Virus record (IMG/VR): IMGVR_UViG_3300035204_002141
Coordinates: 1 to 30,362 of that record
Length of the DNA: 30,362 bases
Source of the DNA: a virus
Strand: one strand, 5' to 3'
Shown here: piece by piece, positions 1,195-27,516 of the stretch
Layout of the letters: each line of letters begins with the position of its first letter
Position numbering within the stretch: the stretch's first letter is position 1
The notes under the pieces: model-generated
Seen by the model: the letters and a program-made list of their open reading frames with translations, nothing else
What the model was told of the DNA's origin: nothing
Databases searched by the model: none
Translations under genes and position numbers: made by a program

Positions 1195-1203
1195 ATTAAT
1201 AGT
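1195..1203 (-). promoter_or_regulatory. ACTATTAAT box upstream of the fibre gene
   Basis: The minus strand reads ACTATTAAT 18 nt upstream of the ATG at 1176. It differs at one position from the ACTATTTAT box seen upstream of five other genes in this window. It may be a phage late promoter element. The rest of the 141-bp gap (1177-1317) shows no convincing gene or terminator. Confidence 0.4.
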
Positions 1204-1317
1204 TTTATTTATGGTTATTTGAATGAGATAAAGCACAATTATTTACCACCTTGCCAATAGCAAGAAATGCACAAAGCCCATCCGCACATAAGTAGTCTTT
1301 TTTCTTAGGCTCGAACC

Positions 1318-2352
1318 CTAGCAAATAAAATATTTATTTGCACCATTACAATAAAGCTGGATCGATGCATAAGATGACTCCAAAACTACTTGATTTTGAC
1401 CGTCAATTGTGTCCGATCCTGCGCAACTCACAGTAACCGGATGCGTGCTAACAGCGCCGCCTTCGTCTTTAATTACAAAAGTTTGACCATTTAAAAGGTT
1501 GTTTGCGTTTGGAAGTGTCAAGGTGATAGAATTCGACAAAGAATCCGACTGGATGCCCAACAAATAATCGCGCTCACTAATAGAATAATTGGTTGTGACG
1601 ACCTTTCTCACATAGCCAATACCGCCGAACATTTGAATCTGATATGCACCCAGTTTAAAAAGGCGACCTTGTTCCATGAAAATACCATTATTCTTAAAAT
1701 TCATGAATCCAATATCAAAGCCCTTCACCAAACTTCCGGATCCAAAGCTTAGATTGCCACCCTCAACGCTAAGCTTGTCTGACCCCAAATAAATTGTACT
1801 GCTCGATACATATAAGTTGCGCCATGGATTGTCGGCGCTCCCCAGATCAAATGTATTCCCTGTGACTGGAACCATGTGCCCAGAAGCAGACACATTCCCG
1901 CTTACCATCATAGTGCCGGTGAGAATTAAGTCGCCGCCCGAAAAAAGCAGTGTTGCCGATCCTGTGATCCCCCCGTCTATCGGATCGTGAAACTGAATAG
2001 AATTAGCGGGGCCCTCGGTGGCGATATGGTTGCCGGCCACATTGGTCAGATTATAGCCATCGCCATAAAAATATGACGCAGACACCCCCACACTTGCGGT
2101 CAAGTCTCCCACAAGATTAAGAGTATATCCGTCAAAAGTGAGATTGCTTTCACAGGTTAGAGTGTTCGCATCGCCACCTACATTGGTGATAATTGCGTTA
2201 TCGACTGCATTTGAAACGCGGGGAACATTTATAACCTGGGCTGCGTCTGAGGTGCTTAGGTTTCCAGATAGAACCGTAGATACGATTGCATCCGGCCGGG
2301 GGATAAGCTCTGACGGCAAGAAAACCGTACCCGACATATTATTGTGGGACAT
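1318..2352 (-). CDS. tail-fibre/appendage structural protein
   Basis: This 344-aa protein starts at ATG 2352, with AGGAG nine bases upstream; an internal Met at residue 6 is a weaker alternative. The N-terminal two thirds are rich in Ser, Gly, Asn and Thr with short beta repeats (GDLTASVGVSASYFYGDG, LTGTMMVSGNVSASGHM), typical of phage fibre or decoration proteins. The C-terminal ~75 residues (TLTLPNANNLLNGQTFVIKDE ... SIQLYCNGANKYF) form a domain shared with the next gene upstream (2375-3079): a small beta domain ending in an aromatic [SI]xLYxNGxNxF motif. I infer a virion role from this architecture and from the neighbours; which structure it belongs to is not visible. Confidence 0.72.
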   Translation of the reverse strand: MSHNNMSGTVFLPSELIPRPDAIVSTVLSGNLSTSDAAQVINVPRVSNAVDNAIITNVGGDANTLTCESNLTFDGYTLNLVGDLTASVGVSASYFYGDGYNLTNVAGNHIATEGPANSIQFHDPIDGGITGSATLLFSGGDLILTGTMMVSGNVSASGHMVPVTGNTFDLGSADNPWRNLYVSSSTIYLGSDKLSVEGGNLSFGSGSLVKGFDIGFMNFKNNGIFMEQGRLFKLGAYQIQMFGGIGYVRKVVTTNYSISERDYLLGIQSDSLSNSITLTLPNANNLLNGQTFVIKDEGGAVSTHPVTVSCAGSDTIDGQNQVVLESSYASIQLYCNGANKYFIC

Positions 2353-2374
2353 TCTGCAGGGCTCCTAGGTTTAA

Positions 2375-3079
2375 TTAGAAGACGAACCAATTAGTGCCAT
2401 TGGAATATAAACTAATTGCCGGCATCGTACCGGTGAGAATATAGGTCGGATCCCCATCAAATGTGTAAGTATCTGTTACCGAGCGCGTAAGAGTAATGTT
2501 GGAAAGGCCGCGGGGAGTTGTTACTTCATCTTTGATGATCAAAATTGTGCCGGCACTAAATTGAGTTGGATTGGGAATCGTAATATGGATATTGGCCGGC
2601 GGTGTTACTACGGCTGTGACTCCCAAAACGTATTCGCTTGTAGATGCAGTATAGTGACTGCTTGTGACGTTCGTATAATTTCCGCCGAAACCTTTTACAA
2701 ATGTTTGCTGACTTTGGGCACTTGATGTTAGGTACGCAACGCTATTAGGGCCGCCAGTCCACAACTCAAAGCTTCCGGTGCGCGAGTGAATGTCGTCAGC
2801 TGTATCTCCAAAAAACGTAGAACCAGTGGCGTCGATAACTGTAATGTTTTGGTAATTATATACACTGGCGCTCAGGGTGCCCGTGATTACCATGTTGCCT
2901 GAAAGGACTAATGTGTTTGGCGGATTCCCGGCAACAGACGCGGTATAAAAAATTAAGTGTTCTGAACCAGTAGTATGGCCGAGGGCACCAGAAATAAACT
3001 GCAGCGATCCTGTCGGTCCTGACGCAGCGCCATCGCCCGCATCGGCGCAATCTATATATGCCCAGCCGAACTTCGCCAT
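2375..3079 (-). CDS. tail-fibre/appendage structural protein, paralogous C-terminal domain
   Basis: A 234-aa protein starting MAKFGWAYIDCAD. Its ribosome site (AGGAGTAGGA) is encoded by the last codons of the upstream gene 3084-3503, so the pair is probably translationally linked. It has SGNMVITGTLSASVYNY-type beta repeats around residues 59-75 and a C-terminal domain (ITIPNPTQFSAGTILIIKDE ... AISLYSNGTNWFVF) clearly related to the end of the 1318-2352 product. The N-terminal 'GWAYIDC' region followed by Gly/Ser/Thr-rich sequence looks like an attachment segment. I judge it a virion appendage component; a specific fibre role is inference. Confidence 0.7.
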   Translation of the reverse strand: MAKFGWAYIDCADAGDGAASGPTGSLQFISGALGHTTGSEHLIFYTASVAGNPPNTLVLSGNMVITGTLSASVYNYQNITVIDATGSTFFGDTADDIHSRTGSFELWTGGPNSVAYLTSSAQSQQTFVKGFGGNYTNVTSSHYTASTSEYVLGVTAVVTPPANIHITIPNPTQFSAGTILIIKDEVTTPRGLSNITLTRSVTDTYTFDGDPTYILTGTMPAISLYSNGTNWFVF

Positions 3080-3083
3080 GGGC

Positions 3084-3503
3084 CTATCCTACTCCTGTTG
3101 AACCTGACCAATTCGGGCCTGTTTCGGTAGCCGTCTTGTTGGTATTAATGTTCGTCAAACCAGCAATGATGTCCACATTGTTCGAGCCCGATATCCATAT
3201 GGAGGAAACTTTTAATTCTAAAACACCGCTATTTCCCTGGCCGAACTGATCCAAGTCTGCGGCCGCTACTGTAAAATAGTTACTCGAACCAGTCATTCCA
3301 CTTACTGAAAACGCCACCTTACATGCATTTAGTTCATCATTATTGAGCACCTTAAACCAGCGCGTTACGTAAGGAAAAACAACCTCAACCCCTCCTGGGA
3401 GAGAAGCCTCCAAACAGTCAATACTGCCGGTCGCATAGGGCTGGCCGCTTACTTGAAATGAACCAACGAAATTTAGCCCTGGTGACAGGTTCCAGCTACC
3501 CAT
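3084..3503 (-). CDS. small virion-type protein, paralogue of the 15066-15479 product
   Basis: A 139-aa protein starting MGSWNLSPGLNFVGSFQVSG, with AGGAG seven bases before the ATG. It shares overall length and layout with the 137-aa product of 15066-15479: an N-terminal NPG/SPG...VGS(F/Y)Q segment, a central VxRxxxxxN beta region, an FSxxGxxGxxN motif, an IAGLT(N/G)I motif, and the ending NWSGS(T/A)GVG. The fold looks all-beta with no transmembrane segment. No enzyme motif is seen. An ACTATTTAT box lies 31 nt upstream of the start, so this may be the first gene of a late transcript running through the fibre genes. The virion role is inferred. Confidence 0.65.
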   Translation of the reverse strand: MGSWNLSPGLNFVGSFQVSGQPYATGSIDCLEASLPGGVEVVFPYVTRWFKVLNNDELNACKVAFSVSGMTGSSNYFTVAAADLDQFGQGNSGVLELKVSSIWISGSNNVDIIAGLTNINTNKTATETGPNWSGSTGVG

Positions 3504-3534
3504 AATAATTCTCCTAATTTATGTGATGTTCATT

Positions 3535-3543
3535 ATAAATAGT
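3535..3543 (-). promoter_or_regulatory. ACTATTTAT box (candidate late promoter)
   Basis: The minus strand reads ACTATTTAT 31 nt upstream of the ATG at 3503 and just after the stop of the bS21 gene. It is one of six copies at gene junctions in this window. Confidence 0.45.
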
Positions 3544-3545
3544 CG

Positions 3546-3791
3546 CTATTTTCTTCTATAACGCTTTTGATTAGCTTTAAGCCTCTTTTGTTGTTCGCGA
3601 TATCGGGTGCGGGCGGCGCGGTCTCTTTTTTCCTTCTTCTTGATGGAGGGCTTTTTATAATATCGGCGGTCCCTAACCTGTTCAACGATTTTTGATTTCT
3701 TGACTTTCTTGATGAACTTTCTAATCATCCTTTCATGATTGCCGCGGCACTCCCGGGCATTCACGGATATGTTTGTTGCTTTCTTTCCCAT
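3546..3791 (-). CDS. rpsU: phage-encoded ribosomal protein bS21 homologue
   Basis: An 81-aa, strongly basic protein. After a short N-terminal strand (NISVNARECRGNHERMIRKF) it has the bS21 pattern: a helix KKVKKSKIVEQVRDRRYYKK followed by P-S-x-K-K-K-x-K-R and a long basic C-terminal helix (RAARTRYREQQKRLKANQKR). Cellular bS21 shows the same order (VxVxxxExxxxALRRFKxxxxKxGxLxExRRRxxYEKPxxxRKR). bS21 sits on the 30S subunit near the anti-Shine-Dalgarno region, so a phage copy could enter host ribosomes and bias initiation towards phage mRNAs; that function is inference. The ribosome site CAGGAG lies six bases before the ATG, just after the stop of 3803-4207. At 81 aa it is slightly longer than the usual ~70. 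Confidence 0.82.
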   Translation of the reverse strand: MGKKATNISVNARECRGNHERMIRKFIKKVKKSKIVEQVRDRRYYKKPSIKKKEKRDRAARTRYREQQKRLKANQKRYRRK

Positions 3792-3802
3792 TTCTACTCC
3801 TG

Positions 3803-4207: not shown

Positions 4208-4246
4208 ATCACCTTCTTTTTTTGATTCCTAATGAGGTTTGGCCAC

Positions 4247-4855: not shown

Positions 4856-4861
4856 AGTCAA

Positions 4862-5224
4862 CTACCCTTGCAGCAGTGTCGAACCGGCTGCAGCATCCAT
4901 TTTGCTGTCCAAATGTTTGTGTTCATGTTTGATCCCTTCATCTCCAAAAATCATATTAAGTATATATGAAGTGCCGGAAGATAGGCCGCCCAAGAGCAAC
5001 GCATTAACGACACTTACGTCAAAACTAAATAGTTCTGTAAACGGAGAAAGTAGCATTAAAAGCCAGCCCACATGAAACCCCATGCACATGGGGCAGTGAA
5101 ATACTTTTCCGTATCCCCCCAAGAACTCCTTGGAAGGCCTTAATCTCTTTACAATCGGCATATCGCTATATACCAAAATCTGTGTTAGCCCATAGGCACA
5201 CAAAATAAATGCTGCTAGTTCCAT
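4862..5224 (-). CDS. membrane protein with CPMCMGFHVG motif (DUF1360-like)
   Basis: A 120-aa protein with a hydrophobic N-terminal segment (ELAAFILCAYGLTQILVY), a central HCPMCMGFHVGWLLMLL segment with a CxxC pair at the start of a membrane helix, and a third hydrophobic stretch (VNALLLGGLSSGTSYILNMI). The C-terminus is polar and His-rich (KHEHKHLD). The CPxCxGFxxG arrangement resembles the DUF1360 family; that assignment is from memory. It lies between head-assembly genes and its ATG overlaps the preceding stop as TAATG, so it is co-translated with the 37-aa ORF upstream. One speculative role is anchoring prohead assembly to the membrane; T4 initiates heads on the inner membrane using other proteins. 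Confidence 0.68.
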   Translation of the reverse strand: MELAAFILCAYGLTQILVYSDMPIVKRLRPSKEFLGGYGKVFHCPMCMGFHVGWLLMLLSPFTELFSFDVSVVNALLLGGLSSGTSYILNMIFGDEGIKHEHKHLDSKMDAAAGSTLLQG

Positions 5225-5889: not shown

Positions 5890-6706
5890 CAGTATAAATT
5901 TCCTTTACTAATTTTTGTGTCTTCATCACGGTCATCAGGATACGCTCGCTTACTATATCCTGCCCTAACGAATCTAGCTTATCAAGCACCGTGTCCGCTC
6001 TTTGAAGCATTGCTTCGTCAGCCTGGAACTCTTTTGTGCTTTTGGCCTCCGACAGGCGCGCTTTAAGGCGTCCAACTTCTTCATTAAGGAACATCTTCAA
6101 TTCAAGTGCGTTATCAGAAAAGGAAGAAACATAACGAGAAAGCAGATCTTTTTGTTCTTCCAGTAACTCATCTGAATATTTTGCATTAAATTTTTCAACG
6201 AAACTTTTCATCACCAACTTATCAATATCCAAAGATGGCTCTTCTGTTGTGGCTTCCGCGGCCATGTTCTCTATTATCTGATTTTCCAAGATAACTGAAT
6301 TTTTCGGAGATAGCTTATCAGAAAATATCTGCGCTATTGTGGCGAGAGTGCGATAATTGGGCACGTAGTTGCCAAAAACAGAAGTGGCCACTTCTTTGTT
6401 TATGTCGTTAATAAGTTCAGTTTGCTGCTTGAACAAGCCTTCCGGATCGATAAGGCGGCGAGCAATTTTTGCTTCCTTCATGATCTTTTCCGAGGTTTGC
6501 CTGTCGAGGCCCTGGTTCTCATATAAAGAACGGTAGCACATCAGCTCTTTGTGTAACAAGCTATCACCGCCAAAGTGCTTCTTAAATAAGCGGACTATTT
6601 GTTGCTTACGGTCGGCGTCGTCTCTTAGCACGGCAACCGTGACCTCCTTAACAAGCGCCTCATAAATGAATGCAGTGTTGCGCTTCTTATTGTGCTTGTT
6701 CTTCAT
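5873..6706 (-). CDS. helical head-module protein, possible prohead core component
   Basis: A 277-aa, almost entirely helical and charged protein. It starts MKNKHNKKRNTAFIYEALVK at 6706 with GGAG seven bases upstream, and overlaps the end of the portal gene by 20 nt. The segment NTAFIYEALVKEVTVAVL is the most hydrophobic part and looks like a packing interface. Long coiled-coil-prone helices follow (for example residues 160-250). No catalytic motif is visible. The position directly after the portal gene and the helical composition fit a scaffold/core or portal-associated assembly protein; this is inference. The product carries several (I/L)xE tripeptides that the downstream protease could cut, but such sites are common by chance. 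Confidence 0.68.
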   Translation of the reverse strand: MKNKHNKKRNTAFIYEALVKEVTVAVLRDDADRKQQIVRLFKKHFGGDSLLHKELMCYRSLYENQGLDRQTSEKIMKEAKIARRLIDPEGLFKQQTELINDINKEVATSVFGNYVPNYRTLATIAQIFSDKLSPKNSVILENQIIENMAAEATTEEPSLDIDKLVMKSFVEKFNAKYSDELLEEQKDLLSRYVSSFSDNALELKMFLNEEVGRLKARLSEAKSTKEFQADEAMLQRADTVLDKLDSLGQDIVSERILMTVMKTQKLVKEIYTDGNNS

Positions 6707-9700
6707 CTTTGTTCTCCGTTAATAAATTGTTAGGGTTATTAGTTTCCAAATCTTGCAAAAGACTTCTCACAGAATCGTTTATTTCAAAAAGCCTGCTCTC
6801 TTCGGCATCTTCTCTCAAATTATAAATAGACCGGTCATCCTCGTAAATACCTGCTCCTAGGCCATTCATGGAAGCCATAGATTTCAAATCTGAATATCCG
6901 GGCATCATATTGCGTACTCCGGAGGAGCTTTTTTCTTTAGAATGCTTGGCCGCATATGAGCGTGTGCGGGCGCCTGCTTGGCGCTTATCAGTCTTTACCG
7001 GGCGGTATACCTTCCCCTTGGCGCCTGGTGTGAGGCGCGGGGCGTTGCGCGAGCCTGGGGGTACCGCCAAGAGGGGGGATTCCTCATCGCCACCCTCTGC
7101 TTCGCCGGCGGGGATCTCTTCGGGGCCGCCTTCGATGTCGCCGCCCAGATCAAGGTCGCCGCCCATGTCGTCGGCCATGTCGCCGCCCAGAACGCCACCC
7201 AATTCGCCGCCGAGGCCTCCGCCTGCACCGGCCTCGGCAACTTGTTGAAGGTTGGCATCTTGGCCGCGGTCGTAATACATCTCTCTTTGGTTGCGGATAA
7301 AGTCTTCGTACGACATGCCAAAGATGTTTGAAGAAACCCATCGGCGGGAGAAGAAGCCCTCGGTTGCGGAGGCTGCGATATCGAACTTCTGCTTCCAGTG
7401 TTCAAGCTCCTGAAGCTCCGCGATCTTAGATGGGTTGTTAAGGGAAAGTTCGAAACTCAACAAATCGTCGCCACGGAATCCGAGCGTATATAGATGAATG
7501 ATTCCAATCTTCGTAAGCTCAGCAATGATTACGCGCTGAAGGCGCTGAATTGTGCGCGCAAACCGAATATCCTTTTGCGCTAGCGTTGTCTTGTCTTCGC
7601 CGGCGTCGTCGCCCATCGTCAAATACGCCTGGGGAATCTTTAGTGCGGAAAACAGCTTGTCGCGAAGATACTTAACGTCGTCAATCGCGGTGACGTTTTG
7701 GCCGCCGGCTAAATTTTGGATATCAGTCACAGAGCCGGCACGAACAGGGATGAAATAGTCCTCTTCAATGCTCATTGGGTTATAGCGCAAATCAATTCGA
7801 CCGGTGTCGCTATCAACAACGGAGTTACGCTTAAGCTGCGTAACAATCTTCTGCATGTACTGTTCGACATCTTGTGGCGGGACCGAGCCGACATCGATCT
7901 TGAACACTCTTCGCTCGGATGATCGAACAACTCGATAAGCCATCATGGCGTCTTCCATTAGGGTAAGCTGGCGCCAGATTCGGCGGGCGGGCTCAAGGAT
8001 AGATGTTCCATATGGTGAATACTTGTCGTTTCCAAGTATACGAAAATGAGCAATTTGCCAATTTTCAAAGGTCATGCCGGCCGAATTCCATTGGTACTGG
8101 ATATAATTTGGATTTGTCGAATCTAGGCCCTCCAACCTTTCAATTTCAGGAGAGGGGAGAGCAATAACTGATTGGACACCGTACTTCTCATCGATGTCCA
8201 AGTACAAGAAGAAGTCTCCATACTTGCACATGGTGCGGCTCCATCCAAATAGATTGGATTCCACATTCAAAATATTGCTATACAATATTCCAAGAACCGC
8301 CTTCAATTCCTCGTTCGGGCAATTGATGCGCAACATCGGACGCAAATCAGAATACGTTGTCATTTCGTCTGCATAGATATCAAGGGTGGAGGCAATCTCG
8401 GGCGTGTTGTGTGATATAACAGTATCAGTCGCAAAGTTTTTATACCCGTCTACTGTTAAATCGTAAAGATCGATGTATCCGTAATACTCGATAGATTCCA
8501 CTTTGTGGTTGTGATAATTGTCTCTAAAGTCTGTAAAATTGTTGAACCCTGCCGACTTTACGCGACTTACAATCTTCATATATGTCGTATCGAGTTTTTC
8601 AGCCAACTCATTGGAAGACATTCCTCTTTCGTATGTCTCACATATTTTTTGGTATGTCAGGCTGTTGTCGAAGCGGGGGTTTTTATTTCCGCGATTATCG
8701 TGGCCATCGTTTCTCCACGATGGGCTATAAGTTTTAGCAAAAATCTCAAAATTATCGAAACCCTTTGAGCGAAGGCGACGCTTGATAACATTCGGATCCG
8801 TATCAAGCATTGAACATAGCTTCTTTTGATTAAACCCGTACGTATCACACAAGGACAAGATCTTTTCAAATGTGATATCTTTTCGCTCGGCAGGATTGTT
8901 TTCTTGCATCCATTTTGAATGTCTTTTTCCAAACTCTTCCCACCAACCAGTATCTTTTCTTTGTTCATTGAGGATATTTTGATGCATCTTCAAGTGCTCG
9001 TTGTTATCCATAACTTGCAAGTTATCGGGGCAGTTATCGTGCTTAACAAAGTTCCTGTGGTGGACCACCTCTGTTTCTAACATTCTTTCCCCAGACATCC
9101 ATTCGGCAATCATAATGTGCTCTGCTTTCCAGCCTGGGCGCCTGCCTTCGTCGTTATGCATTGTATAAATCCACCGATACCCATCGCCAGTATCGTCCTT
9201 GGTTCCCGCCAAGTCCTTGCGATAGAATGGCATCATAGCCATACCGGGAACAAGCTCATCAATGCGTCTGTAAGTTCCATCGCGGAGCATTAGACGGTGG
9301 TTTGCGGTCCCAATGATCTCTTTACCATTTTCAAACTTGACTTTCCAAGCGTGCTCGGTTGTTGTCTTTCTAGCCTGCTTGCCAAGTGCCGGCACTATTT
9401 CTTGTTTTGCGTGATCGTAGGCATAAACAATAAATTGTTCTTCTGTACCATATTCGTCAGACAATTCTTTAAGTGTCTTATATCCGCCTGGGACAGCAAT
9501 CTTGGTGTCGGCGTGGAGACAATACTCCATCTGATCAAAGTCAACATAACGCTCTGTTCTTTGTTGGTTCTGAATCGCATTGGTCGATATGTTGTCTAGT
9601 GGGTTATATTGCGACTTCTTGAACTGCTGTCCGGATGCAGACTTAAATTTTGAAGAAAACTTGTCTAGATGCTGGCGTCTAATCCGGCGGCCTGTTTGGG

Positions 9701-9794
9701 ACCTATAGTTAATGATTGGTCCAGAAAATAGGCGCGTTAACGCTTTAAATAAATTGGATTGTCGATTTTTTGGGTTCTTGTCTACTACAGCCAT
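6687..9794 (-). CDS. portal protein (T4 gp20-like) precursor interrupted by an intein
   Basis: The 1035-aa precursor consists of an N-extein (residues 1-91), an intein (92-463) and a C-extein (464-1035), giving a spliced portal of about 663 aa. The extein junction would read ...VDFDQMEY/TPEIASTLDIYADE; the xALDIYxDE-like sequence is the gp20 portal signature near the start of the core. Later portal features include FGWSRTMCKYGDFFLYLDID, the long helix region RIWRQLTLMEDAMMAYRVVR, and YLRDKLFSALKIPQAYL. The C-terminal region holds a Gly/Asp/Glu-rich low-complexity segment (minus strand of about 7088-7260), then a basic tail and a helical end. The portal forms the dodecameric packaging vertex and docks the terminase, encoded immediately upstream. 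The start ATG at 9794 has only a weak ribosome site. Confidence 0.9.
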   Translation of the reverse strand: MAVVDKNPKNRQSNLFKALTRLFSGPIINYRSQTGRRIRRQHLDKFSSKFKSASGQQFKKSQYNPLDNISTNAIQNQQRTERYVDFDQMEYCLHADTKIAVPGGYKTLKELSDEYGTEEQFIVYAYDHAKQEIVPALGKQARKTTTEHAWKVKFENGKEIIGTANHRLMLRDGTYRRIDELVPGMAMMPFYRKDLAGTKDDTGDGYRWIYTMHNDEGRRPGWKAEHIMIAEWMSGERMLETEVVHHRNFVKHDNCPDNLQVMDNNEHLKMHQNILNEQRKDTGWWEEFGKRHSKWMQENNPAERKDITFEKILSLCDTYGFNQKKLCSMLDTDPNVIKRRLRSKGFDNFEIFAKTYSPSWRNDGHDNRGNKNPRFDNSLTYQKICETYERGMSSNELAEKLDTTYMKIVSRVKSAGFNNFTDFRDNYHNHKVESIEYYGYIDLYDLTVDGYKNFATDTVISHNTPEIASTLDIYADEMTTYSDLRPMLRINCPNEELKAVLGILYSNILNVESNLFGWSRTMCKYGDFFLYLDIDEKYGVQSVIALPSPEIERLEGLDSTNPNYIQYQWNSAGMTFENWQIAHFRILGNDKYSPYGTSILEPARRIWRQLTLMEDAMMAYRVVRSSERRVFKIDVGSVPPQDVEQYMQKIVTQLKRNSVVDSDTGRIDLRYNPMSIEEDYFIPVRAGSVTDIQNLAGGQNVTAIDDVKYLRDKLFSALKIPQAYLTMGDDAGEDKTTLAQKDIRFARTIQRLQRVIIAELTKIGIIHLYTLGFRGDDLLSFELSLNNPSKIAELQELEHWKQKFDIAASATEGFFSRRWVSSNIFGMSYEDFIRNQREMYYDRGQDANLQQVAEAGAGGGLGGELGGVLGGDMADDMGGDLDLGGDIEGGPEEIPAGEAEGGDEESPLLAVPPGSRNAPRLTPGAKGKVYRPVKTDKRQAGARTRSYAAKHSKEKSSSGVRNMMPGYSDLKSMASMNGLGAGIYEDDRSIYNLREDAEESRLFEINDSVRSLLQDLETNNPNNLLTENKDEEQAQ
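8406..9521 (-). mobile_element. HNH-endonuclease-containing intein in the portal gene
   Basis: The 372-residue insertion begins with Cys (CLHADTKIAVPGG, block A) and contains block B (IIGTANHRLMLRDG). It ends with block F/G (DLYDLTVDGYKNFATDTVISHN), a C-terminal His-Asn followed by +1 Thr in the extein. All residues needed for standard class 1 splicing are present. Between the splicing halves lies an HNH nuclease (EVVHHRNFVKHDNCPDNLQV ... NEHLKMH, intein residues ~151-180, about 8982-9071). After it come two repeated helix-turn-helix-like units, about intein 216-262 and 288-333, each ending GF(D/N)NF, probably DNA-recognition modules of the homing enzyme. The element is in frame and intact, so splicing and homing both look possible. 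Confidence 0.92.
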
Positions 9795-14118: not shown

Positions 14119-14423
14119 TTGTCGCCTCTGTTTTGTGCCTTCACGCTCTTAACGCATTTCTCATATTTCTCTTTATCTTCTCGTCCCACTTGTGCTGTGC
14201 ATATTGCCCAAGGATTGTTTTCTTTCTCTTCAAGTTCACCTGAACCTTCGCTCTCTGGTCACGTGTCTTCTTCTTCTGATTCTTTCTTGCGGGGGCCGGG
14301 GTGTTGTCCAGGATGAGGGGTGCCATCACGCTGGCGTTTGAGCTTTCTCCACGTTGGAATTTCATCCAGCTTTTCAATCTCTTCTCTTATAATCTGCTTA
14401 AGTTGGGATTTGGTGATCTTCAT
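14115..14423 (-). pseudogene. tagged small protein with in-frame TGA at codon 55
   Basis: From ATG 14423 the frame reads MKITKSQLKQIIREEIEKLD and then a basic, Pro/Gly-rich region to EEEDT (54 aa), where a TGA occurs at 14259-14261. The same frame continues without another stop for 47 codons: an acidic linker and then NPWAICTAQVGREDKEKYEK, C, VKSVK, ending with TGA at 14115-14117 overlapping the holin start. The downstream part is compositionally ordinary protein with Trp/Cys residues and has no ATG, GTG or TTG start of its own. It is therefore expressed only if the TGA is read through or is an error. Options: nonsense mutation, sequencing error, or recoding (TGA followed by C is a leaky context). 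The N-terminal 54-aa piece is expressible as it stands. Confidence 0.62.
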
Positions 14424-14455: not shown

Positions 14456-14464
14456 CTAAATAGT
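14456..14464 (-). promoter_or_regulatory. ACTATTTAG box (candidate late promoter)
   Basis: The minus strand reads ACTATTTAG 32 nt upstream of the ATG at 14423, just after the stop of 14472-15047. It is one of the six junction boxes. Confidence 0.4.
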
Positions 14465-15891: not shown

Positions 15892-17031
15892 CTATGTTGC
15901 TAATCCATTCATGCTTAGTATCGCAATCAACCCAGGCACATTCTTTCGGACGTAAACGCCAGAGAACAATGTCTCGCATCGGCCGCCGACATAAGCGATT
16001 GCCGACTCAATATTCTTGCTGACCTTCGGGTCAGCCACCATCTCTTCCGAAACCACCAGCACTAGTGCACCTGCTTGTGCCTTTCCTTTGGGTGATGGGC
16101 AAGGGCTGCGGTTCATCGTGTTGTGCAGAATCACCGACCCAAGCTTGCCTGTGTTCGGATCCTTAATCATTGTAGAGCCGATAAATGCTCGGCCATTATT
16201 GCCCAAGCATGTTTCCAGATCCTTTGAATCAAAGGATTGAATCGGCGAGTCCTCTGTGGATAGTTTTAGGATTTGAGCAAATGACTTGGCAAATTGCGTG
16301 TTAGCGACAGGATACATCCCAAGCATGCCTATGCGACCTCTGAGGAGCCGTGTGGCTCGCTCGTTATCCAACACGATGTGCGGGTGCTTGGCGACATCAT
16401 TAACGAGTGTGAGGGCATTGCGGGCGATTGTGGGGTTAAGGTTCTCTTGTGCTGTCGGCCAAGACACTACATACACAACCTTGCCTGATGCTTGCACCGA
16501 CTTCATATATCGCTCGAATGTGCCGTGCAATGCTGTCGCAGAGCTTCCTGTGCCGCCACCGCCGCCTGCAAAGACAAACAGCCAATCGACCTTGCCCAGC
16601 TTAATGCGGAGGGCATCTTCGACAATCGCCCCATTCTGTGATAGAACCTCTTTGCCGTAATCTACGTTCTTGCCGATGCCGTCGCTATCGGGGATAAGAA
16701 CGACGTGATCTTCTTCAACGTTCTTCGGGATGTCTTTGCCTGTCGTGTTGACGAGCAGTGCCTTGTTGAAGCCAAGCTCGATGAAAGCATTAGCCATCTT
16801 GCCACCGCCGCCGCCTATGCCGACGAACCCAACATTGATAGATGATGCTGCTGTGTTCTCGGGGAGGAGATCCTCGTCGGAGTATTCCATTTGCAACCCA
16901 AAGTCTTCGACCATTCCGAAGTCAGCAGCTTCCACTTCTTCGTGGTAGCTATCCTTCTCCTGGTTGAAGGCGGGTGGCGGAACGGCTTCTGGTAAAAACC
17001 CAAATTCATTGTTATCGTTTTCGTCTGACAT
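15892..17031 (-). CDS. FtsZ/tubulin-family GTPase
   Basis: I start at ATG 17031 (379 aa, MSDENDNNEF; GGAG seven bases upstream) rather than at a TTG seven codons earlier. After a ~64-residue acidic, disordered-looking extension comes the tubulin/FtsZ GTPase core: NVGFVGIGGGGGKMAN (T1, residues 66-81), LLVNTTGKD (T3 region), the signature loop FAGGGGGTGSSA (T4, 154-165), helix LDNERATRLLRGRIG, and a T7-like loop SFDSKDLE (266-273) with both acidic residues that complete the active site across the filament interface. It ends at LIAILSMNGLAT without an FtsZ-type C-terminal peptide. Filament formation and GTP hydrolysis look possible. In phages such proteins position DNA or capsids, or could interfere with host division; which applies here is unknown. 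Confidence 0.88.
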   Translation of the reverse strand: MSDENDNNEFGFLPEAVPPPAFNQEKDSYHEEVEAADFGMVEDFGLQMEYSDEDLLPENTAASSINVGFVGIGGGGGKMANAFIELGFNKALLVNTTGKDIPKNVEEDHVVLIPDSDGIGKNVDYGKEVLSQNGAIVEDALRIKLGKVDWLFVFAGGGGGTGSSATALHGTFERYMKSVQASGKVVYVVSWPTAQENLNPTIARNALTLVNDVAKHPHIVLDNERATRLLRGRIGMLGMYPVANTQFAKSFAQILKLSTEDSPIQSFDSKDLETCLGNNGRAFIGSTMIKDPNTGKLGSVILHNTMNRSPCPSPKGKAQAGALVLVVSEEMVADPKVSKNIESAIAYVGGRCETLFSGVYVRKNVPGLIAILSMNGLAT

Positions 17032-17048: not shown

Positions 17049-17079
17049 GCAATAAATAGTTATTAAATAATCTTATTGC
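17049..17079. repeat. inverted repeat before the tubulin-like gene
   Basis: GCAATAA at 17049-17055 is matched by TTATTGC at 17073-17079 (7-bp arms, 17-nt loop), spanning the ACTATTTAT box. There is no T-run, so it is not a standard terminator. It could be an operator or a leader hairpin. Confidence 0.4.
17052..17060 (-). promoter_or_regulatory. ACTATTTAT box (candidate late promoter of the tubulin-like gene)
   Basis: The minus strand reads ACTATTTAT 20 nt upstream of the ATG at 17031, in the 59-bp gap after the Mre11-Rad50 gene. Confidence 0.45.
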
Positions 17080-17090: not shown

Positions 17091-20000
17091 TCACTGATTT
17101 ACTCTTGCATAACCTTTTGCCTTATCAATCTCTATTTGCGTATCAACACAATCCTTTAGGGAATCTAAATGAGAGATCAGCAAGACAGCCGGGAAATACA
17201 CCTTGATTATCTCTAGAATTCTCACGAATCCCTCCATGTTGTCTTGATCTAATGCCGTCCCTGGCTCATCTAAGCAAAATATTGATGACTTTGGCAACGA
17301 AGACACGCCAAGCAATGCTAGCCGAATAGCTATGGCAGCCAAAGATTTTTCTGCTCCTGATGCCATCTCAATTGGGCGAGGGTCATGTCTGGGGTGTTTG
17401 ATGAAGATGTCGAACTTTTTTCCACTATCTTCGAAGAAAATTTCGAACTCAACAATGTTTGCGAGAACTTTCGCAATCTCTTGATTAATGATTGGCAACT
17501 TTCGCTTAACAACATCATAAGATATCCCACTCGAGTGCATACATCGCATATAAAGATCATAAGCTGAATATTCCTCCTGTAAATCAATGTATTCTTGTTT
17601 CTGTGTTTCTATGCTCTCGACCTTTTGTTCAAGAGAGCCGACACTTTTATATAATTCTAATGTTTCTGTTTGACAAACAGCATATTGTGCCTCTGCTTTC
17701 TCAAGCTTGGCGGCACAAGCATCAAGTTCAGTCGTATATTCTTCGAAGTTTTCAATGACTTCTTTGTTCTCTTCGTATTGCTTCTTTTTGATCTCGAGAT
17801 CTTTTAGCTCATAACCCAAGCGATCAATTGAGGCCTGATTTCTTTCAATTGATAGATTCAGATCTGCGATATCATTTGTGATTGCTGTTCGCTTATCAAT
17901 AATCTTGTTATATTTATCAAGCTGATCTTCAACAAAATCTGGCTTTAAGCTTTTTAGCTTTTCTTCAAGCTCGTCGACGCTAGTTCGTGCTTCTTCTTTT
18001 TCACTCTCAACGTGAGGAAGATTGGCGACAGCCACATTTGCATCGCGAATAAACTTGCACTGCGGAAAATCGGTGCCACACGGGATCCCATCAAGAAGGT
18101 GCGATTTGCGTTCAATATCTTCGATCTGTTGTGTTAGATCAGCCAACATGTTGGCTTGTGCTTCTTTCTGTTCTCTCGCTGTGTTGATTGTTTCGATCTG
18201 TTCTGTTAATGCATCAACGTTAATCTTGCTTAAATATTCTTCTATTTTCTCGGCTAAACCGCGTTTAACACTTAGGTCAACATTGTGCTGCTTGTTGTCG
18301 CTCTCCAACGATGCAACCTGATTCTCTCTGTTTCTGATTTCTCGCTTTGTGTCGACAACATTGATAACATCCTCGGGGATTGCGTCAATGCTGTTTCGCA
18401 ATTCCTCACAAGTTTTTGTTATTTGCTCGATTTCTTCTTGCAACTCTTCACAATCAATCTTGTGATCTTCAAGCTCTTGTCGCTTATCTTCCAATTGTGC
18501 TGACGCGTCACCAATTTCTTCGTCGTAATTGCGGGCTTCCAGTCGCCTCAAAGCACCCTTAAGATCGGTGGAGTCGTCTTTCGCCAACTTAAACTTTCGC
18601 TCAAACACTTCAAGATCCAGGAACTTGGCGATGATCTCCTTGCGTCTTGTTGAGCCCTCGTCAATAAACGCCAATGCCCCGTGTTGAGACGCCATTGAAG
18701 ACACCAAGAAGTCGTCAATGGTGCCAAAGTGCTTGCGGATGTTTGCGTCCGTCAGCGGGCGACTGAGCCCGTTTAATGATAGTGTCTCGTCTGTGACTTG
18801 ATTGTATACTTCAAAGTTCAGGTCTGTCTTTGCTTCTTCTGTTTCCTCGCCTTTGAGTCGTTTGATATATTTTGTGGCGGTTCGCTCGATTGTGTAGGTT
18901 TTGTGCCCAACATCGATTGTTACTTTTCCTCGGCACGATTCCTTATTCTGGTTAATAACGTTGAGATTCTTCCTTTCATTTTTCGAGGTTGTATTAAAAA
19001 GAGTCCAAAGCACGCCATCAATAATACTGCTCTTCCCAGAATAGTTCTTTCCAAAAATGCCGATAATTCCATTAAGGTTCTCAAATGATACATTGTTCCC
19101 TTCTCCGTAATTAAACAAATTATCAAACTCAAAGTTCGTGAGTTTCCAATTTACATTTCTTGATACTTCTTCGCTGTCTTCAACTTGCTTTTTATATTTG
19201 CGGTTTAAATCATAAACTCTCTCAAGTGTTGAGGAGTCGACCTGATAATCTTTTAGATATTCATCGATTAGTTCTTCTTGAATATTGATATCTCGAAGGT
19301 TCTCTGTCTTTAATGTGTCTGTGATCTCGCTTACATCACCGCGTTCACCAGCCGCACGATTCAAGAACGTCACAACTTCTGGCTTAAAGCGGTGTTTTGC
19401 GATATCCATTGCTCGCTTCATTACATTGAGCGGCAGGTTGTTGTTACTTACGAGGCGGAGGCGAGCACCCTTTGTGACCTTTGCTCCCTTGGGCATACGA
19501 CCCTTTGGCGTAAGCTCCAAAGTGATAAACGGCTTCGGGTTCTTAAATACGACTGGCTCGACATCCCACTCGTCCTTTGACTGAATATCCCAAATGAGGA
19601 TGCCCTTGTCGTTCGTCTCTCCGTGATTTTGCTGAACGGTACTGCCGGCATACCAAATGCGACCAGCATCGTCAAGGATCTGGCGGCGATGGATATCGCC
19701 AAGCATCGCAAAATCAAATCCGTCGAAGATCTCCATTGTGTCTTCGCCATTGAGCATCACCCAGCCAACGTCTGTCTTGCAGTTGCTGATAGAGCCGTGA
19801 TATAGGGCGATGTTGATCTTGTCTGTGTTTGTTGGCTTGATCCAGTTTTCTCGATCAAACACCGATAGCACGTTCAGGCACACCTCATCATTGATGTTGG
19901 TCTCACCTGCATCTTTAAGCAAATGAAGATTCGGATGTTCTAACGCCATAACAATTGGAGTTAAAGCATCTTGACGACTACTATTTTTTAAATTTCCATC

Positions 20001-20246
20001 GTGGTTACCAAGCAGACAATACGTCGGCGCAATATCCGCCAGGTTTCTTAGAAAGTCTGACGCCATCTCAAAAAATTCCGGAGATAACTGCGTTTTCGTG
20101 TGGGCGAGATCTCCCGTGTGGACAATATAGTCGACTTCTTCTTCTCGCAGCTTCTCGTATAACTGCTCAAAGACAACTCGATATTCATAATGATATTTTA
20201 AATTTTTAATGTGTGTGTCGCTAATATGTGCGATCTTGTAACTCAA
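17091..20246 (-). CDS. single-chain Mre11-Rad50 (gp47-gp46 / SbcD-SbcC) fusion
   Basis: A 1051-aa protein. Residues 1-~340 are an Mre11/SbcD/gp47 phosphoesterase with all metal motifs: SDTH (D10, H12), HTGDLAH (D46), GNHD (80-83), LYHGS (H150), GDIH (183-186). From ~365 on it is Rad50/SbcC/gp46: FGKNYSGKSS Walker A (399-407), long coiled coils (~570-720 and ~745-920), an apex CGTDFPQC with Cys 723 and 730 (zinc-hook-like), ABC signature SGAEKS (963-968), Walker B IFCLDEP (989-995), D-loop and ISHLD. In T4 these are two proteins that process DNA ends for recombination-dependent replication; here they are one. The start is TTG at 20246 with GGGAG five bases before it; no ATG is better placed. 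Confidence 0.93.
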   Translation of the reverse strand: MSYKIAHISDTHIKNLKYHYEYRVVFEQLYEKLREEEVDYIVHTGDLAHTKTQLSPEFFEMASDFLRNLADIAPTYCLLGNHDGNLKNSSRQDALTPIVMALEHPNLHLLKDAGETNINDEVCLNVLSVFDRENWIKPTNTDKINIALYHGSISNCKTDVGWVMLNGEDTMEIFDGFDFAMLGDIHRRQILDDAGRIWYAGSTVQQNHGETNDKGILIWDIQSKDEWDVEPVVFKNPKPFITLELTPKGRMPKGAKVTKGARLRLVSNNNLPLNVMKRAMDIAKHRFKPEVVTFLNRAAGERGDVSEITDTLKTENLRDINIQEELIDEYLKDYQVDSSTLERVYDLNRKYKKQVEDSEEVSRNVNWKLTNFEFDNLFNYGEGNNVSFENLNGIIGIFGKNYSGKSSIIDGVLWTLFNTTSKNERKNLNVINQNKESCRGKVTIDVGHKTYTIERTATKYIKRLKGEETEEAKTDLNFEVYNQVTDETLSLNGLSRPLTDANIRKHFGTIDDFLVSSMASQHGALAFIDEGSTRRKEIIAKFLDLEVFERKFKLAKDDSTDLKGALRRLEARNYDEEIGDASAQLEDKRQELEDHKIDCEELQEEIEQITKTCEELRNSIDAIPEDVINVVDTKREIRNRENQVASLESDNKQHNVDLSVKRGLAEKIEEYLSKINVDALTEQIETINTAREQKEAQANMLADLTQQIEDIERKSHLLDGIPCGTDFPQCKFIRDANVAVANLPHVESEKEEARTSVDELEEKLKSLKPDFVEDQLDKYNKIIDKRTAITNDIADLNLSIERNQASIDRLGYELKDLEIKKKQYEENKEVIENFEEYTTELDACAAKLEKAEAQYAVCQTETLELYKSVGSLEQKVESIETQKQEYIDLQEEYSAYDLYMRCMHSSGISYDVVKRKLPIINQEIAKVLANIVEFEIFFEDSGKKFDIFIKHPRHDPRPIEMASGAEKSLAAIAIRLALLGVSSLPKSSIFCLDEPGTALDQDNMEGFVRILEIIKVYFPAVLLISHLDSLKDCVDTQIEIDKAKGYARVNQ

Positions 20247-20491: not shown

Positions 20492-20520
20492 AGTATATCT
20501 TTTCAGGCTAGCAATGTCAA
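20492..20520 (-). promoter_or_regulatory. sigma70-type promoter TTGACA-N17-TATACT
   Basis: The -35 TTGACA is at 20515-20520 and the -10 TATACT at 20492-20497 on the minus strand, with an exact 17-bp spacer. The -35 overlaps the 3' end of the 304-aa gene. It would drive the 52-aa membrane protein and the Mre11-Rad50 fusion. Confidence 0.8.
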
Positions 20521-21417
20521 GTATTTTTCTAAACTTTCTTTCCAAACTCCAACGCCTGAATCTGGTGAAAGGTTTAGTTCACTTTCTGGTGATGGCTGGT
20601 TCCCTGCTCGGGCTTTGTTTTTTTGAATAACGTCATAAGCAACCGACCACTCTGGTGGCAACCACATGTATTCACCTCCATCATCAGCTAGCGAAAACAA
20701 CTGATTGTCTGATGCATATGCCCAGAACGTTGCCTGTGTTTTGCCGGAAGTGCCTGTGAATTTCTCCAACCTCTTTCGGCCTTCTCTGTCGGTAAGCCAA
20801 TGTCGAACTAGTTGTTCCCACGACGCCTTTGTCATTCCAACAAAAGGCAGCATCTCATCATCTGCAATTGAGTCTGCGGGTGTGTAAACGAAGTGATTTG
20901 TGCCTGTTCTCAGGGCGATTGCGTTATCGGCAATAATCGGGGCAACCTCCGCTCCTTTTGCAAGAAACTTTTTCTTTGCGCCTTCAATCCCTTCGGCATC
21001 GTCTACGTCAATTATGATGCCCTCAGCGGTGGCGGCATCTCTAAAGTGTCTCACGTCTTCCATGCTACCAAAGTATTCGTCTTCTATATCTTTTTTCTGC
21101 TGAGCGAGTTGCGATTTAATCTCCCCTTTTTGTGCATCGTGTGCGAACTCTCCTGCCAATTGTGTGCCGAAAGCACCGAGAGCACCGAGGATCATAATAA
21201 CAGTCTTCTTCTTTAATGACGGTAGTTCATCAAAATTCCTTAAGGCGTTCTTGACTTTTTCGCGGAATGATTCGCTAGTTTTCCACTGCTCGATAACATC
21301 ATCCTCATCGCCCTCAAACAAAACACCGAAGATCTCTTCTTCTAGTATCTCGTTAAGCAGTCGAAGGCGAACTTCCTCTAAGATAATCTGCTGAAGTTTG
21401 GATTCTGTGATATTCAT
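20503..21417 (-). CDS. 304-aa protein with N-terminal LxxIILEE tag and a hydrophobic segment
   Basis: It begins MNITESKLQQIILEEVRLRL, a member of the tag family seen on four other proteins. After an acidic region (EEEIFGVLFEGDEDDVIEQW) comes a hydrophobic stretch (KTVIMILGALGAFGTQLAG, about residues 71-89) that could cross a membrane, then charged helices, and a C-terminal mixed domain rich in Trp (ASWEQLVRHWLTDREGRKRL, TFWAYASDNQLFSLADDGGE, YMWLPPEWSVAYDVI). No family is recognised. The ATG follows the primase stop directly (TAA-ATG), so it may be translationally coupled. A GCTATTTAT box also lies 26 nt upstream inside the primase gene, which could give separate late expression. Confidence 0.6.
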   Translation of the reverse strand: MNITESKLQQIILEEVRLRLLNEILEEEIFGVLFEGDEDDVIEQWKTSESFREKVKNALRNFDELPSLKKKTVIMILGALGAFGTQLAGEFAHDAQKGEIKSQLAQQKKDIEDEYFGSMEDVRHFRDAATAEGIIIDVDDAEGIEGAKKKFLAKGAEVAPIIADNAIALRTGTNHFVYTPADSIADDEMLPFVGMTKASWEQLVRHWLTDREGRKRLEKFTGTSGKTQATFWAYASDNQLFSLADDGGEYMWLPPEWSVAYDVIQKNKARAGNQPSPESELNLSPDSGVGVWKESLEKYLTLLA

Positions 21418-22359
21418 TTATACTGCCGATAGTAAATCTACCAATAAATAGCTATCTCTATCGATAAAGGATGCATTATTTTTTCTTGCCTCAAACACTT
21501 CTTTCGGCATTGATCCTACGTCTTCGTATCCGGAAACATCGATCTTATAAAGCTCGATATCGTACTCCAAAAGCATCTTAATGATCCTGCGTTCTTTTGT
21601 GGCCGCGTCTGGATCGAGGGCCACGTAGACCGGCGTGTCGTTGAAAACAATTTTGCGGACGAGATCGGAGTTCGTTCTAAGTGTTGAGCCCAAAATGGGA
21701 ACAGCATTTCCTGCGACCAATGCATCAAAAGCCCCTTCGACCAAAACAAGGTCTTTGTTCCAGTCAATAAATAGCTCATTAAAGACTATGTCTTTTGACG
21801 CTCTCGGGTTTTTATACTTATACGAGTCCCCCGTATAGGATCGAGCAATAAAGTAGCTACAATCGCCGTCATCGTCAAACGACGGAATGATGACTCTGTT
21901 GCGGTATTCGCCGCTAAAACAAAAGCCGATTTTCCATTTAAGAATATCGGCCTTAGATACGCCTCGGTTTTCAAGGTAGCGCAATGCATATCTGCCGGTT
22001 GCTGGAACATCATCGGAACATAAGCTTACGAACTCTTCTGGGAGTTCCACTTTTGTCTTGTCTTCTCCACCGCATCGTTCCACAAATAGATCAGCGAATC
22101 TTTCAAGATCGGTACGGTCTGTAATCGAGTCCCATTTCTGTAATTGGCTATACGTACCAAAACGTCTAACAAGCCGACGAAGATTACGACCGCGATAATC
22201 ACAAATCCAACAATGAAAAGCATTTTTATCCAGATTAACAGCGAGCTTATGCTTGCGGTGATTGCACGCCGGACATTTGAAATAATGCTCGTTCTTGCTG
22301 GTTTGGCGGTAGTTTCCAATCGTTTCATTTAAGATCTTTAGTGCTTCTTTCTTGTTCAT
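21418..22359 (-). CDS. DNA primase (DnaG/gp61-like)
   Basis: A 313-aa primase. The N-terminal zinc-binding domain has CPAC (Cys29, Cys32) and CWIC (Cys50, Cys53). A TOPRIM catalytic domain follows with the acidic motif LVLVEGAFDAL (Glu208) and VALDPDA (Asp249, Asp251). IGFCFSGEYRNRVIIPSFDDDG (about 144-165) resembles the RNA polymerase-basic region of DnaG-like primases. It makes RNA primers for lagging-strand synthesis with a helicase partner not present in the window. Length is close to T4 gp61 and shorter than cellular DnaG, with no helicase-interaction domain visible. A consensus promoter sits immediately upstream; the predicted leader is only about eight nucleotides, beginning within GAGGG. 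Confidence 0.88.
   Translation of the reverse strand: MNKKEALKILNETIGNYRQTSKNEHYFKCPACNHRKHKLAVNLDKNAFHCWICDYRGRNLRRLVRRFGTYSQLQKWDSITDRTDLERFADLFVERCGGEDKTKVELPEEFVSLCSDDVPATGRYALRYLENRGVSKADILKWKIGFCFSGEYRNRVIIPSFDDDGDCSYFIARSYTGDSYKYKNPRASKDIVFNELFIDWNKDLVLVEGAFDALVAGNAVPILGSTLRTNSDLVRKIVFNDTPVYVALDPDAATKERRIIKMLLEYDIELYKIDVSGYEDVGSMPKEVFEARKNNASFIDRDSYLLVDLLSAV
21444..21452 (-). promoter_or_regulatory. GCTATTTAT box inside the primase 3' end
   Basis: The minus strand reads GCTATTTAT 26 nt upstream of the ATG at 21417. It lies in coding sequence, so it could be chance, but its placement matches the five other junction boxes. Confidence 0.3.
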
Positions 22360-22373: not shown

Positions 22374-22402
22374 ATTGTAACACGATTGAATATCAAAGTC
22401 AA
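22374..22402 (-). promoter_or_regulatory. sigma70-type promoter TTGACT-N17-TACAAT
   Basis: The -35 TTGACT is at 22397-22402 and the -10 TACAAT at 22374-22379, with a 17-bp spacer, on the minus strand. The predicted start near 22366-22367 leaves a leader of about eight nucleotides before the primase ATG at 22359. Confidence 0.78.
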
Positions 22403-22458: not shown

Positions 22459-23055
22459 TTATGCAGCACTCTCGAGCGCAGAAATCAATTGTGCCTTGGT
22501 TGTGCGAGTGTTGACGTCAAGGCCTTGCTGCTTGGCAACCTCAAGAAGCTCTGCCTTCTTCATTGACTTGTTCCACGCAGAAGCAGCTGTTGCTGTGGCC
22601 GCGGGGGCGGCTGCAGCTGCGGTGGTGGCGCCGTCGATCGAAACCAGTTCAATCTCAAAGGTAAGATTCTCGCCGGCGAGAGGATGGTTGAAGTCCAGCA
22701 CCACATCAGAATCGCGGACATCGTGAATCTTGGCCAAAAATGGGCCGCGGGGACCATTGCCCTGCACTGTTTCTCCTAGCTTAAATACGAAATCTTCTCC
22801 AAATGCTAGCTTTGGGATAGTCTGAAAAGCATCCGGATCCCTATCTCCATATGCATCGCCTGGGGTCAGTGCGACCTTCTTTGAATCTCCTACAGACATG
22901 CCCAAAAGAGCATTGTCAAAACCCCTAATCATCTTGCCGGAACCAACTTGAAAACCCAAGGTATTACCTCGAACCTTGGAATTATCAAACTCGGTGCCGT
23001 CGTCCAATGTGCCCCTATAGTGCACATGAACATTGTGTCCATTCTGTACCTTCAT
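22459..23055 (-). CDS. SlyD-like FKBP prolyl isomerase with C-terminal SAP-like domain
   Basis: A 198-aa protein. Residues 1-~141 are FKBP/SlyD-like: VHVHYRGTLDDGTEFDNSKV, VGSGKMIRGFDNALLGMSVG, PGDAYGDRDPDAFQTIPK, an inserted-flap region, and DFNHPLAGENLTFEIELVSI, the SlyD hallmark. An Ala/Thr-rich linker (about 143-160) joins a 34-residue helical domain (SMKKAELLEVAKQQGLDVNT ... AQLISALESA) of the SAP/HeH or Rho-N type, usually a DNA- or RNA-binding helix-extension-helix. The first part catalyses prolyl isomerisation and acts as a holdase; the tail may bring it to nucleic acid. AAGGAG precedes the ATG, and a consensus promoter and a terminator bracket it as a single-gene unit, suggesting high expression. 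SlyD's metal-binding His-rich tail is replaced. Confidence 0.87.
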   Translation of the reverse strand: MKVQNGHNVHVHYRGTLDDGTEFDNSKVRGNTLGFQVGSGKMIRGFDNALLGMSVGDSKKVALTPGDAYGDRDPDAFQTIPKLAFGEDFVFKLGETVQGNGPRGPFLAKIHDVRDSDVVLDFNHPLAGENLTFEIELVSIDGATTAAAAAPAATATAASAWNKSMKKAELLEVAKQQGLDVNTRTTKAQLISALESAA

Positions 23056-23093: not shown

Positions 23094-23122
23094 ATTATAT
23101 CCACATGACGTGGAATTGTCAA
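23094..23122 (-). promoter_or_regulatory. perfect sigma70 promoter TTGACA-N17-TATAAT with palindromic spacer
   Basis: The -35 TTGACA (23117-23122) and -10 TATAAT (23094-23099) both match consensus exactly, with a 17-bp spacer. The spacer contains TCCAC (23100-23104) and GTGGA (23110-23114) on the plus strand, an interrupted palindrome where a repressor could bind. The -35 overlaps the 3' end of the 85-aa gene. Confidence 0.88.
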
Positions 23123-23376: not shown

Positions 23377-23386
23377 ACATTATATA

Positions 23387-23953: not shown

Positions 23954-23965
23954 GATTTTATCATA

Positions 23966-25333: not shown

Positions 25334-25335
25334 GG

Positions 25336-26448: not shown

Positions 26449-26476
26449 TCAATATCTCCATTCCTGTCTTTCTATT

Positions 26477-27490
26477 TTATGAAGTACTTACTACTCTGGT
26501 TATCCTGATGGGGATCTGCAGTGTTATGTTAGTCGAGATTCCCTTGACATATACGATAGTATCGATGTAGTCGAACAACTTGCCGTCAGAGAAAATGTTC
26601 TGATTTACTCGTCCATATTTCTCATAATCAGTTGTTGATATATCGTCGCGTATTGTGAAGTTTAAAGCCGTAAGAGCACCTCTTGCGCCGGCAATATTGG
26701 AAAAGTTCGTTGAGGTATCCGGGCCGCTTGTGGGTCTCACCAAGCCACTCAAAATGCCCAGCACTGGGACTTCGCCGTAATTCATGATACTTCTTGCGGC
26801 TGCAGCTCCCTGAGCCGGTAACAAGCTTACGGAGAGCTGTGCTGATTTTTGGCTATTTGCATTGCTAAAGTTACTACCCGGTCGAGGGCCCAAGACTCTG
26901 CTAACGAATCTCGAATCATATCCTACCATAAATTGACGATCATTTAAACCAACGTTGGTAATGTAGGATGATTGGTTGGCGGCCGTTGATGGAATTTCTG
27001 AATTATTGATACCAGTTTCCACCAAAACATATCGCTCATTAGTTCTTCCGGAGCGCAAAACAGTTGTTTGGCCAGCGCGGGTGGAGTCCACCAACAAGTC
27101 TCCCGTAACCACCTGGTTTGTATCGTATTTTGAATCATCTGCAAGGTAAATGACGCCCTGGCTGCCGCTAAACGCGACATTGTCGGTCATCTTGCTGTTA
27201 ACTGCGATCGTTGGAAGATATAGCAAGTCATTTCTAGTGTATGACATGAGCCCATAGTTAATGGTCGCATTAACTTGCGTAAATGCTTCTAGCACTGGCG
27301 TCTGTAGGATTTCCAGGTCGGCGTACGCAGAGCCGGAGGGGTGATCCCTATTGTATGTTCCATAATCAACTTCGTCGTCACCTAAAGCGAATTTGGTAAT
27401 CTTAAAGTTTCCTTGAGCCATTCTTCGTCTTCCGACGTCGGTAAGAACGGCATCTAGAATAATGTCGCCAGAATTATCTAAAAAAGCCAT
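26477..27490 (-). CDS. tail/baseplate structural protein, MAFLDNSGDIILDAVLTDVG family
   Basis: A 337-aa protein whose N-terminus MAFLDNSGDIILDAVLTDVG, RRRMAQGNFKITKFALGDDE, VDYG is a strongly conserved pattern that I recall from tail-region genes of marine myoviruses. The rest is beta-rich: PTIAVNSKMTDNVAFSGSQG, YVLVETGINN, FMVGYDSRFVSRVLGPRPG, and a C-terminal VYVKGISTNITLQIPIRITR strand pair. No enzyme motif or membrane segment. AGAGG precedes the ATG, and an ACTATTTAT box lies 17 nt upstream, so this may start a late transcript through the tail genes downstream. The role in the tail is inferred from family resemblance and neighbours. Confidence 0.75.
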   Translation of the reverse strand: MAFLDNSGDIILDAVLTDVGRRRMAQGNFKITKFALGDDEVDYGTYNRDHPSGSAYADLEILQTPVLEAFTQVNATINYGLMSYTRNDLLYLPTIAVNSKMTDNVAFSGSQGVIYLADDSKYDTNQVVTGDLLVDSTRAGQTTVLRSGRTNERYVLVETGINNSEIPSTAANQSSYITNVGLNDRQFMVGYDSRFVSRVLGPRPGSNFSNANSQKSAQLSVSLLPAQGAAAARSIMNYGEVPVLGILSGLVRPTSGPDTSTNFSNIAGARGALTALNFTIRDDISTTDYEKYGRVNQNIFSDGKLFDYIDTIVYVKGISTNITLQIPIRITRVVSTS

Positions 27491-27507
27491 TTAATTTCCT
27501 CTCTTTC

Positions 27508-27516
27508 ATAAATAGT
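27508..27516 (-). promoter_or_regulatory. ACTATTTAT box (candidate late promoter)
   Basis: The minus strand reads ACTATTTAT 17 nt upstream of the ATG at 27490, in the 76-bp gap after the 924-aa protein gene. An A8 run lies a few bases upstream of the box. Confidence 0.45.

Follow-up and report, generated by a model that had tools for sequence, protein, structure and literature searches.

The window analysed here is a 30,362-base fragment of a virus record in which all called genes lie on the minus strand. It contains a T4-type head and packaging block composed of a portal (PF07230), a prohead protease (PF03420), and a large terminase, and it also encodes a primase, a single-ORF SbcD-SbcC protein, a tubulin-like protein, and many proteins of unknown function. 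The large terminase exhibits 85-90% identity to those of at least 80 viral contigs and about 46% identity to that of Flavobacterium phage immuto, the next matches being an uncultured 484-kb phage and Microcystis phage Mel-JY01. Judged by these terminase relatives, the window can be placed provisionally near the "Far-T4" phages, a group that is widespread in aquatic environments (PMC4360716, PMC7198788).

Several genes were characterized at the domain level. Near its N-terminus, the portal ORF (6687-9794, minus strand, 1035 aa) harbours an intein-splicing domain that shows similarity to HNH endonucleases. The 1051-aa ORF at 17091-20246 (minus strand) combines an SbcD-like phosphoesterase with an SbcC-like ATPase, the equivalents of T4 gp47 and gp46, in fused form, and the gene at 22459-23055 (minus strand) joins an FKBP-type isomerase domain to a short C-terminal endonuclease VII-like match.

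The comparison set comprised the window and eleven longer relatives (G001-G006, G011-G013, G015, and G016), amounting to 759 kb, in which genes were called and words were subsequently counted in 37.8 kb of noncoding DNA and 721 kb of coding DNA. In the 195-kb relative G011, 249 of the 252 called genes are located on one strand, unlike in T4.

Enrichment and orientation of the box

Within the noncoding DNA of this set, ACTATTTA is the most over-represented 8-mer, with 68 copies against 2.2 expected and, relative to a trinucleotide model built on those gaps, a z value of about 40. The density of the full 9-mer in noncoding DNA is 86 times that in coding DNA, and ACTAYTTA occurs in the gaps 83 times in the coding orientation and once reversed, which bears out the intergenic density and orientation that had been expected of the box in a preliminary description. 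The window alone contains eight copies of ACTAYTTA (1.24 expected), all on the coding strand, as well as 18 exact and one-mismatch matches to the 9-mer (7.9 expected; none of 100 shuffles reached 18), and ACTATTTAT is present three times in its 1.3 kb of noncoding DNA, where 0.026 copies are expected. The strand bias over the whole sequence was set aside as weaker evidence than it appears, since the genes share a single strand and stop codons in two of three frames suppress the reverse word ATAAATAG; valid tests of the box are density and orientation within noncoding DNA, where the 83-to-1 bias stands.

The consensus can be written as ACTAYTTAN in the window clade and as [AC]TATTTAT in the wider family. 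Judged by single-base variants, positions 2-4 and 6-8 hardly vary, position 5 tolerates T, C, or A, and A predominates at position 1; position 9 varies among the relatives. Some matching words were rejected: the many copies of CTATTTATA in the portal gene of the relatives are coding matches to a conserved peptide and lack the leading A, and both ACTACTTAA near terL in the relatives and ACTATTTAG at window positions 5025-5033 were judged to be coding matches.

The core [AC]TATTTAT is common to the two cultured phages. In the gaps of immuto, CTATTTAT occurs 17 times (1.0 expected) and ATATTTAT 24 times (3.5 expected), and these words precede the terL, portal, tail sheath, tail tube, and tape-measure genes. 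The box is found in 20 of 35 late-region gaps and 8 of 67 early-region gaps (P 3e-6), the latter being examples of boxes situated outside virion regions. In Mel-JY01, ATATTTAT occurs in the gaps 24 times (6.4 expected) and precedes, among others, the gene in the portal position and the tail tube gene. As controls of the method, TATAAATA was recovered in T4 and ATAAATAA in cyanophage P-RSM4; none of ACTATTTA, CTATTTAT, and ATATTTAT was present in the P-RSM4 gaps tested, and the procedure met ACTATTTA once in T4, both strands counted. Phage RM378 (NC_004735) was considered as a further case and rejected: its top noncoding word, TTATTTAA (27 copies against 2.5 expected, both strands counted), shares the TATTTA core and is possibly a related promoter, but it lies mostly 5-16 nt before start codons and may equally be a translation signal, and the annotated sigma of this phage is not clearly related to the candidate discussed below. 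No description of the motif or of the Far-T4 transcription programme was found in a literature search that covered few subscription journals.

Box sites in the window

The preliminary description had reported six sites on the minus strand, 17, 20, 31, 32, 26, and 18 nt upstream of start codons. Their sequences, coordinates, and all six distances are correct, while the identity of one site and the placement of another in a gap required revision. Exact copies of ACTATTTAT are located at three of the sites (all minus strand). The copy at 27508-27516 lies in a gap 17 nt before the gene for a 337-aa protein (26477-27490), and orthologues of this gene in G011, G012, G013, G015, and G016 carry the same box 17-18 nt before the start. 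The copy at 17052-17060 lies in a gap 20 nt before the ATG at 17031, which is probably the start of the tubulin-like gene (15892-17031, minus strand; GTPase domain PF00091, E 3e-8), rather than the TTG at 17052. A gene for a tubulin/FtsZ-type GTPase thus appears in a T4-like phage with a putative late-promoter box at its head. The third copy, at 3535-3543, is situated between an S21-like gene (3546-3791) and the gene at 3084-3503, 31 nt before the latter, and a box is present at this junction in many relatives.

Two further minus-strand sites are probable copies. ACTATTTAG at 14456-14464 contains the core ACTATTTA and lies in a gap 32 nt before a small ORF (14259-14423). GCTATTTAT at 21444-21452, 26 nt before the gene at 20503-21417, had been assigned to a gap and in fact lies within the 3' end of the primase coding sequence. 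It is probably a real, slightly degenerate copy, as suggested by the relatives: 8 of 10 distinct sequences have ACTATTTA at the corresponding position, and the synonymous codons there are conserved, with TTA in 9 of 10 against a background of 0.26.

The remaining site, ACTATTAAT at 1195-1203 (minus strand), is not a box. It is a conserved stretch beside the Shine-Dalgarno sequence GGAGGG and aligns with the conserved AAAACTATAATATGGAGGG just 5' of the start codon in 12 orthologous leaders. The box of the gene starting at 1176 is instead ACTACTTAT at 1288-1296 (minus strand), which had been overlooked; all 13 distinct orthologous junctions carry a box at this place, as ACTAYTTA or a one-base variant.

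T4-type frame and candidate late sigma

The T4 late promoter TATAAATA occupies positions -13 to -6 without a -35 element (PMC2988020, PMC1524935) and is read by gp55 together with gp33 and gp45 (PMC2988020); the late promoter of Aeromonas phage Aeh1 is CTAAATA from -12 (PMC1524935), and that of cyanophage S-PM2 is NATAAATA (PMC2984593). Read in the T4 direction, [AC]TATTTA retains both the C or A at -12 and the TA...TA on either side of the centre, where TT takes the place of AA. The box had been regarded as a T4 late promoter pointing the wrong way because the reverse complement of TATAAATA also reads TATTTATA; this view does not hold, as the forward reading fits the T4/Aeh1 frame [AC]TAAATA with AA changed to TT. 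TATAAATA itself occurs only three times in the 37.8 kb of noncoding DNA of the window and relatives, and the box has a central TT throughout. Since this TT departs from the sequence TATAAATA or [AC]TAAATA, the box is, by its sequence, a variant of the T4-type late promoter and not a plain member, even as it lies upstream of virion genes in the coding orientation.

The box and the T4 late promoter share a length of about 8 bp, their orientation, their association with virion genes, the TA..TA frame, and a gp55-related sigma, here a candidate; differences from T4 are the central TT, the added C-terminal helical domain of the candidate sigma, the lack of a detected gp45 homologue, and the location of nearly all genes on one strand. 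The Aeh1 promoter resembles that of the window clade in its C at -12, frame, and spacing, and the cyanophage promoter belongs to the same element class in marine T4-like phages possessing gp55; both differ from the box in their AA centre.

A search with gp55-family profiles identified one gene each in G011 (E 2e-4), G012 (1e-4), and G013 (8e-6), in a setting where 7 of 14 control genomes also yielded matches at E up to 1. The gene lies outside the window fragment, encodes about 238 aa in the relatives, and has homologues labelled hypothetical in immuto (MW353175, 78174-78872) and Mel-JY01. Although single members match phrog_234 (gp55) weakly, 45 of the 47 aligned members of the family do so at E up to 0.1, the best at 6.6e-7. 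The same G011, G012, and G013 genes also match sigma70 region 2 (PF04542) below the family cut-off. A profile comparison with T4 and P-RSM4 gp55 gave about 100 shared columns at a low probability of 22%, and the sequence had no significant match among solved structures. In the predicted structure (mean pLDDT 77), the named best Foldseek matches in both libraries are mainly sigma factors, with modest scores. These weak but consistent signals suggest that the candidate resembles T4 gp55 and adopts a sigma-like predicted fold. It does not fit the gp55 architecture of region 2 alone with a C-terminal clamp-binding tail, as its C-terminus is longer by about 80 residues, which form helices, and the alignment shows nothing like the gp55 tail.

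The best inference is that this gp55-like protein reads the box, the link between them being their co-occurrence. The sigma-gene loci contain few gaps and show only slight box enrichment, and sequence LR756508 has no box within the 100 kb examined despite a sigma homologue of 35% identity. Late transcription in T4 depends on the gp45 clamp, and no match to phrog_223 (gp45-type clamp) was detected in the 195-kb relative, immuto, or Mel-JY01, a search that a divergent clamp could escape. The gp33 family is poorly conserved (PMC2988020). One tentative, rather doubtful possibility is that a single sigma, with a region-2-like part and the added C-terminal helical domain, replaces both gp55 and gp33 and reads the TT-centred box without a gp45-type clamp; the added domain is possibly region-4-like and in contact with a conserved upstream G described below.

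In the mechanism proposed, the box would act as the -10-type element of a late promoter in the T4 orientation with an altered centre, so that ATAAATA at -12 to -6 in T4 and CTAAATA in Aeh1 would correspond to [AC]TATTTA in the window phages. A gp55-related phage sigma, encoded elsewhere in the genome, would direct the host RNA polymerase to the box late in infection, and transcripts would start about 5 nt downstream of it; in T4-type late promoters, transcription begins 6 nt beyond the final A of the box. The identification of the box as a late promoter is strongly supported by sequence comparison, whereas we infer from it which sigma pairs with the box, where transcripts start, that the host polymerase is used, and when the promoter is active, and the combined reading appears highly likely to us. 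The phage-specific late promoter and phage sigma put forward in the preliminary description are consequently retained in their essentials, through conservation, position, gene classes, terminators, and the gp55-like gene.

The box, very probably the late promoter element of a phage-made sigma, is a TT-centred variant shared by a large family of little-studied aquatic phages. What is new here is a variant of the T4-type late promoter, strongly supported, together with its probable sigma, as the best inference, in a widespread phage group. The two would provide a direct means of telling which genes are late and which are early on many metagenomic fragments, and a late-sigma function is suggested for a conserved "hypothetical protein" of cultured phages. 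They may also represent a natural experiment in which a sigma and its promoter element diverge, from AA to TT, within a constant overall frame.

Alternative readings and gene classes

An unlikely alternative is that a housekeeping or alternative sigma of the host reads the box, for example, as the Bacteroidota -7 element TAnnTTTG. TATTTAT somewhat resembles a -7/-10 element, and in the window clade the position 19 nt upstream of the box is enriched in G (36 of 65), which hints at an upstream, possibly -35-like, contact. This G is not enriched in immuto or Mel-JY01, and the three groups have no consistent -35 element, whereas the core is tight and fixed; moreover, the core is shared by phages infecting Flavobacterium and Microcystis, two hosts with different housekeeping promoters. 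Separate sigma70-like promoters also head other genes in the same genomes. In G011 and G001, TTGACA-TATAAT-like promoters precede the genes for SSB, exonuclease, DnaB, GroEL, and UvsX, among others, while box-led genes in G011 include tail sheath, tail tube, neck adaptor, and PhoH. In the window, a consensus scan (+/-1-2 nt) placed sigma70-like promoters on the minus strand at 23094-23122, before the FKBP-endonuclease VII gene, and at 22374-22402, before the primase gene (21418-22359); by sequence, they form the contrasting, putatively early class. Such promoters likewise lie in gaps upstream of genes, and they differ from the box in having two hexamers and in heading replication and other non-virion genes. 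G011 and G013 each contain one gene with both promoter types upstream.

It seems improbable that the box is an RNA element within a longer transcript, such as a ribonuclease processing site or a translation signal. The box does lie close upstream of Shine-Dalgarno sequences, but its distance to the start is variable: box ends fall mostly 16-20 or 27-37 nt before start codons, with a full spread from about 16 to more than 60 nt. Intrinsic terminators are more common upstream of box-led genes (14 of 60 against 15 of 197, P 0.002), as would be expected if a promoter followed the point where the preceding transcript ends, and the box often follows a terminator directly, where little RNA would be present without a new start. 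The marking of virion genes, as by a temporal promoter, and the T4/Aeh1 frame also argue against an RNA element. At one junction, in most relatives, the box does head a folded leader, namely that of the box at 1288-1296, which extends from box to start codon at 1177-1287 (minus strand). This leader of about 80-110 nt precedes a gene beginning MAYKFQLG, and its orthologous leaders include L026, L046, L054, L055, L064, L069, L081, and L083. Folding of 13 leaders gave, in most relatives, one or two hairpins, the first stem starting 2-5 nt past the box in most cases, near the transcription start expected from T4 geometry. Against shuffles, 12 of the 13 reached z values of -1.8 to -5.5, and the window copy, at -0.6, is not outstanding. 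The leader of the MAYKFQLG gene may stabilize late mRNA.

That a phage-encoded RNA polymerase reads the box is very improbable; some phages with private promoters do use their own polymerase, but no multi-subunit polymerase gene was found, and the PF00940 matches considered as a phage RNA polymerase all fall inside the large terminase ORF and yield no credible gene. A chance repeat of an AT-rich word is scarcely credible: although the spacers are AT-rich, six sites in a 30-kb window are a small sample, and two of the six are not clean, the enrichment and orientation bias given above and the independent recurrence in two cultured phages oppose it, and the relatives already refute it. The gaps of immuto (MW353175) additionally contain a second, longer repeated element around TATATTTAGGTATCAATAATTAA, whose 8-mers are present in 11-31 copies and which is possibly another promoter class.
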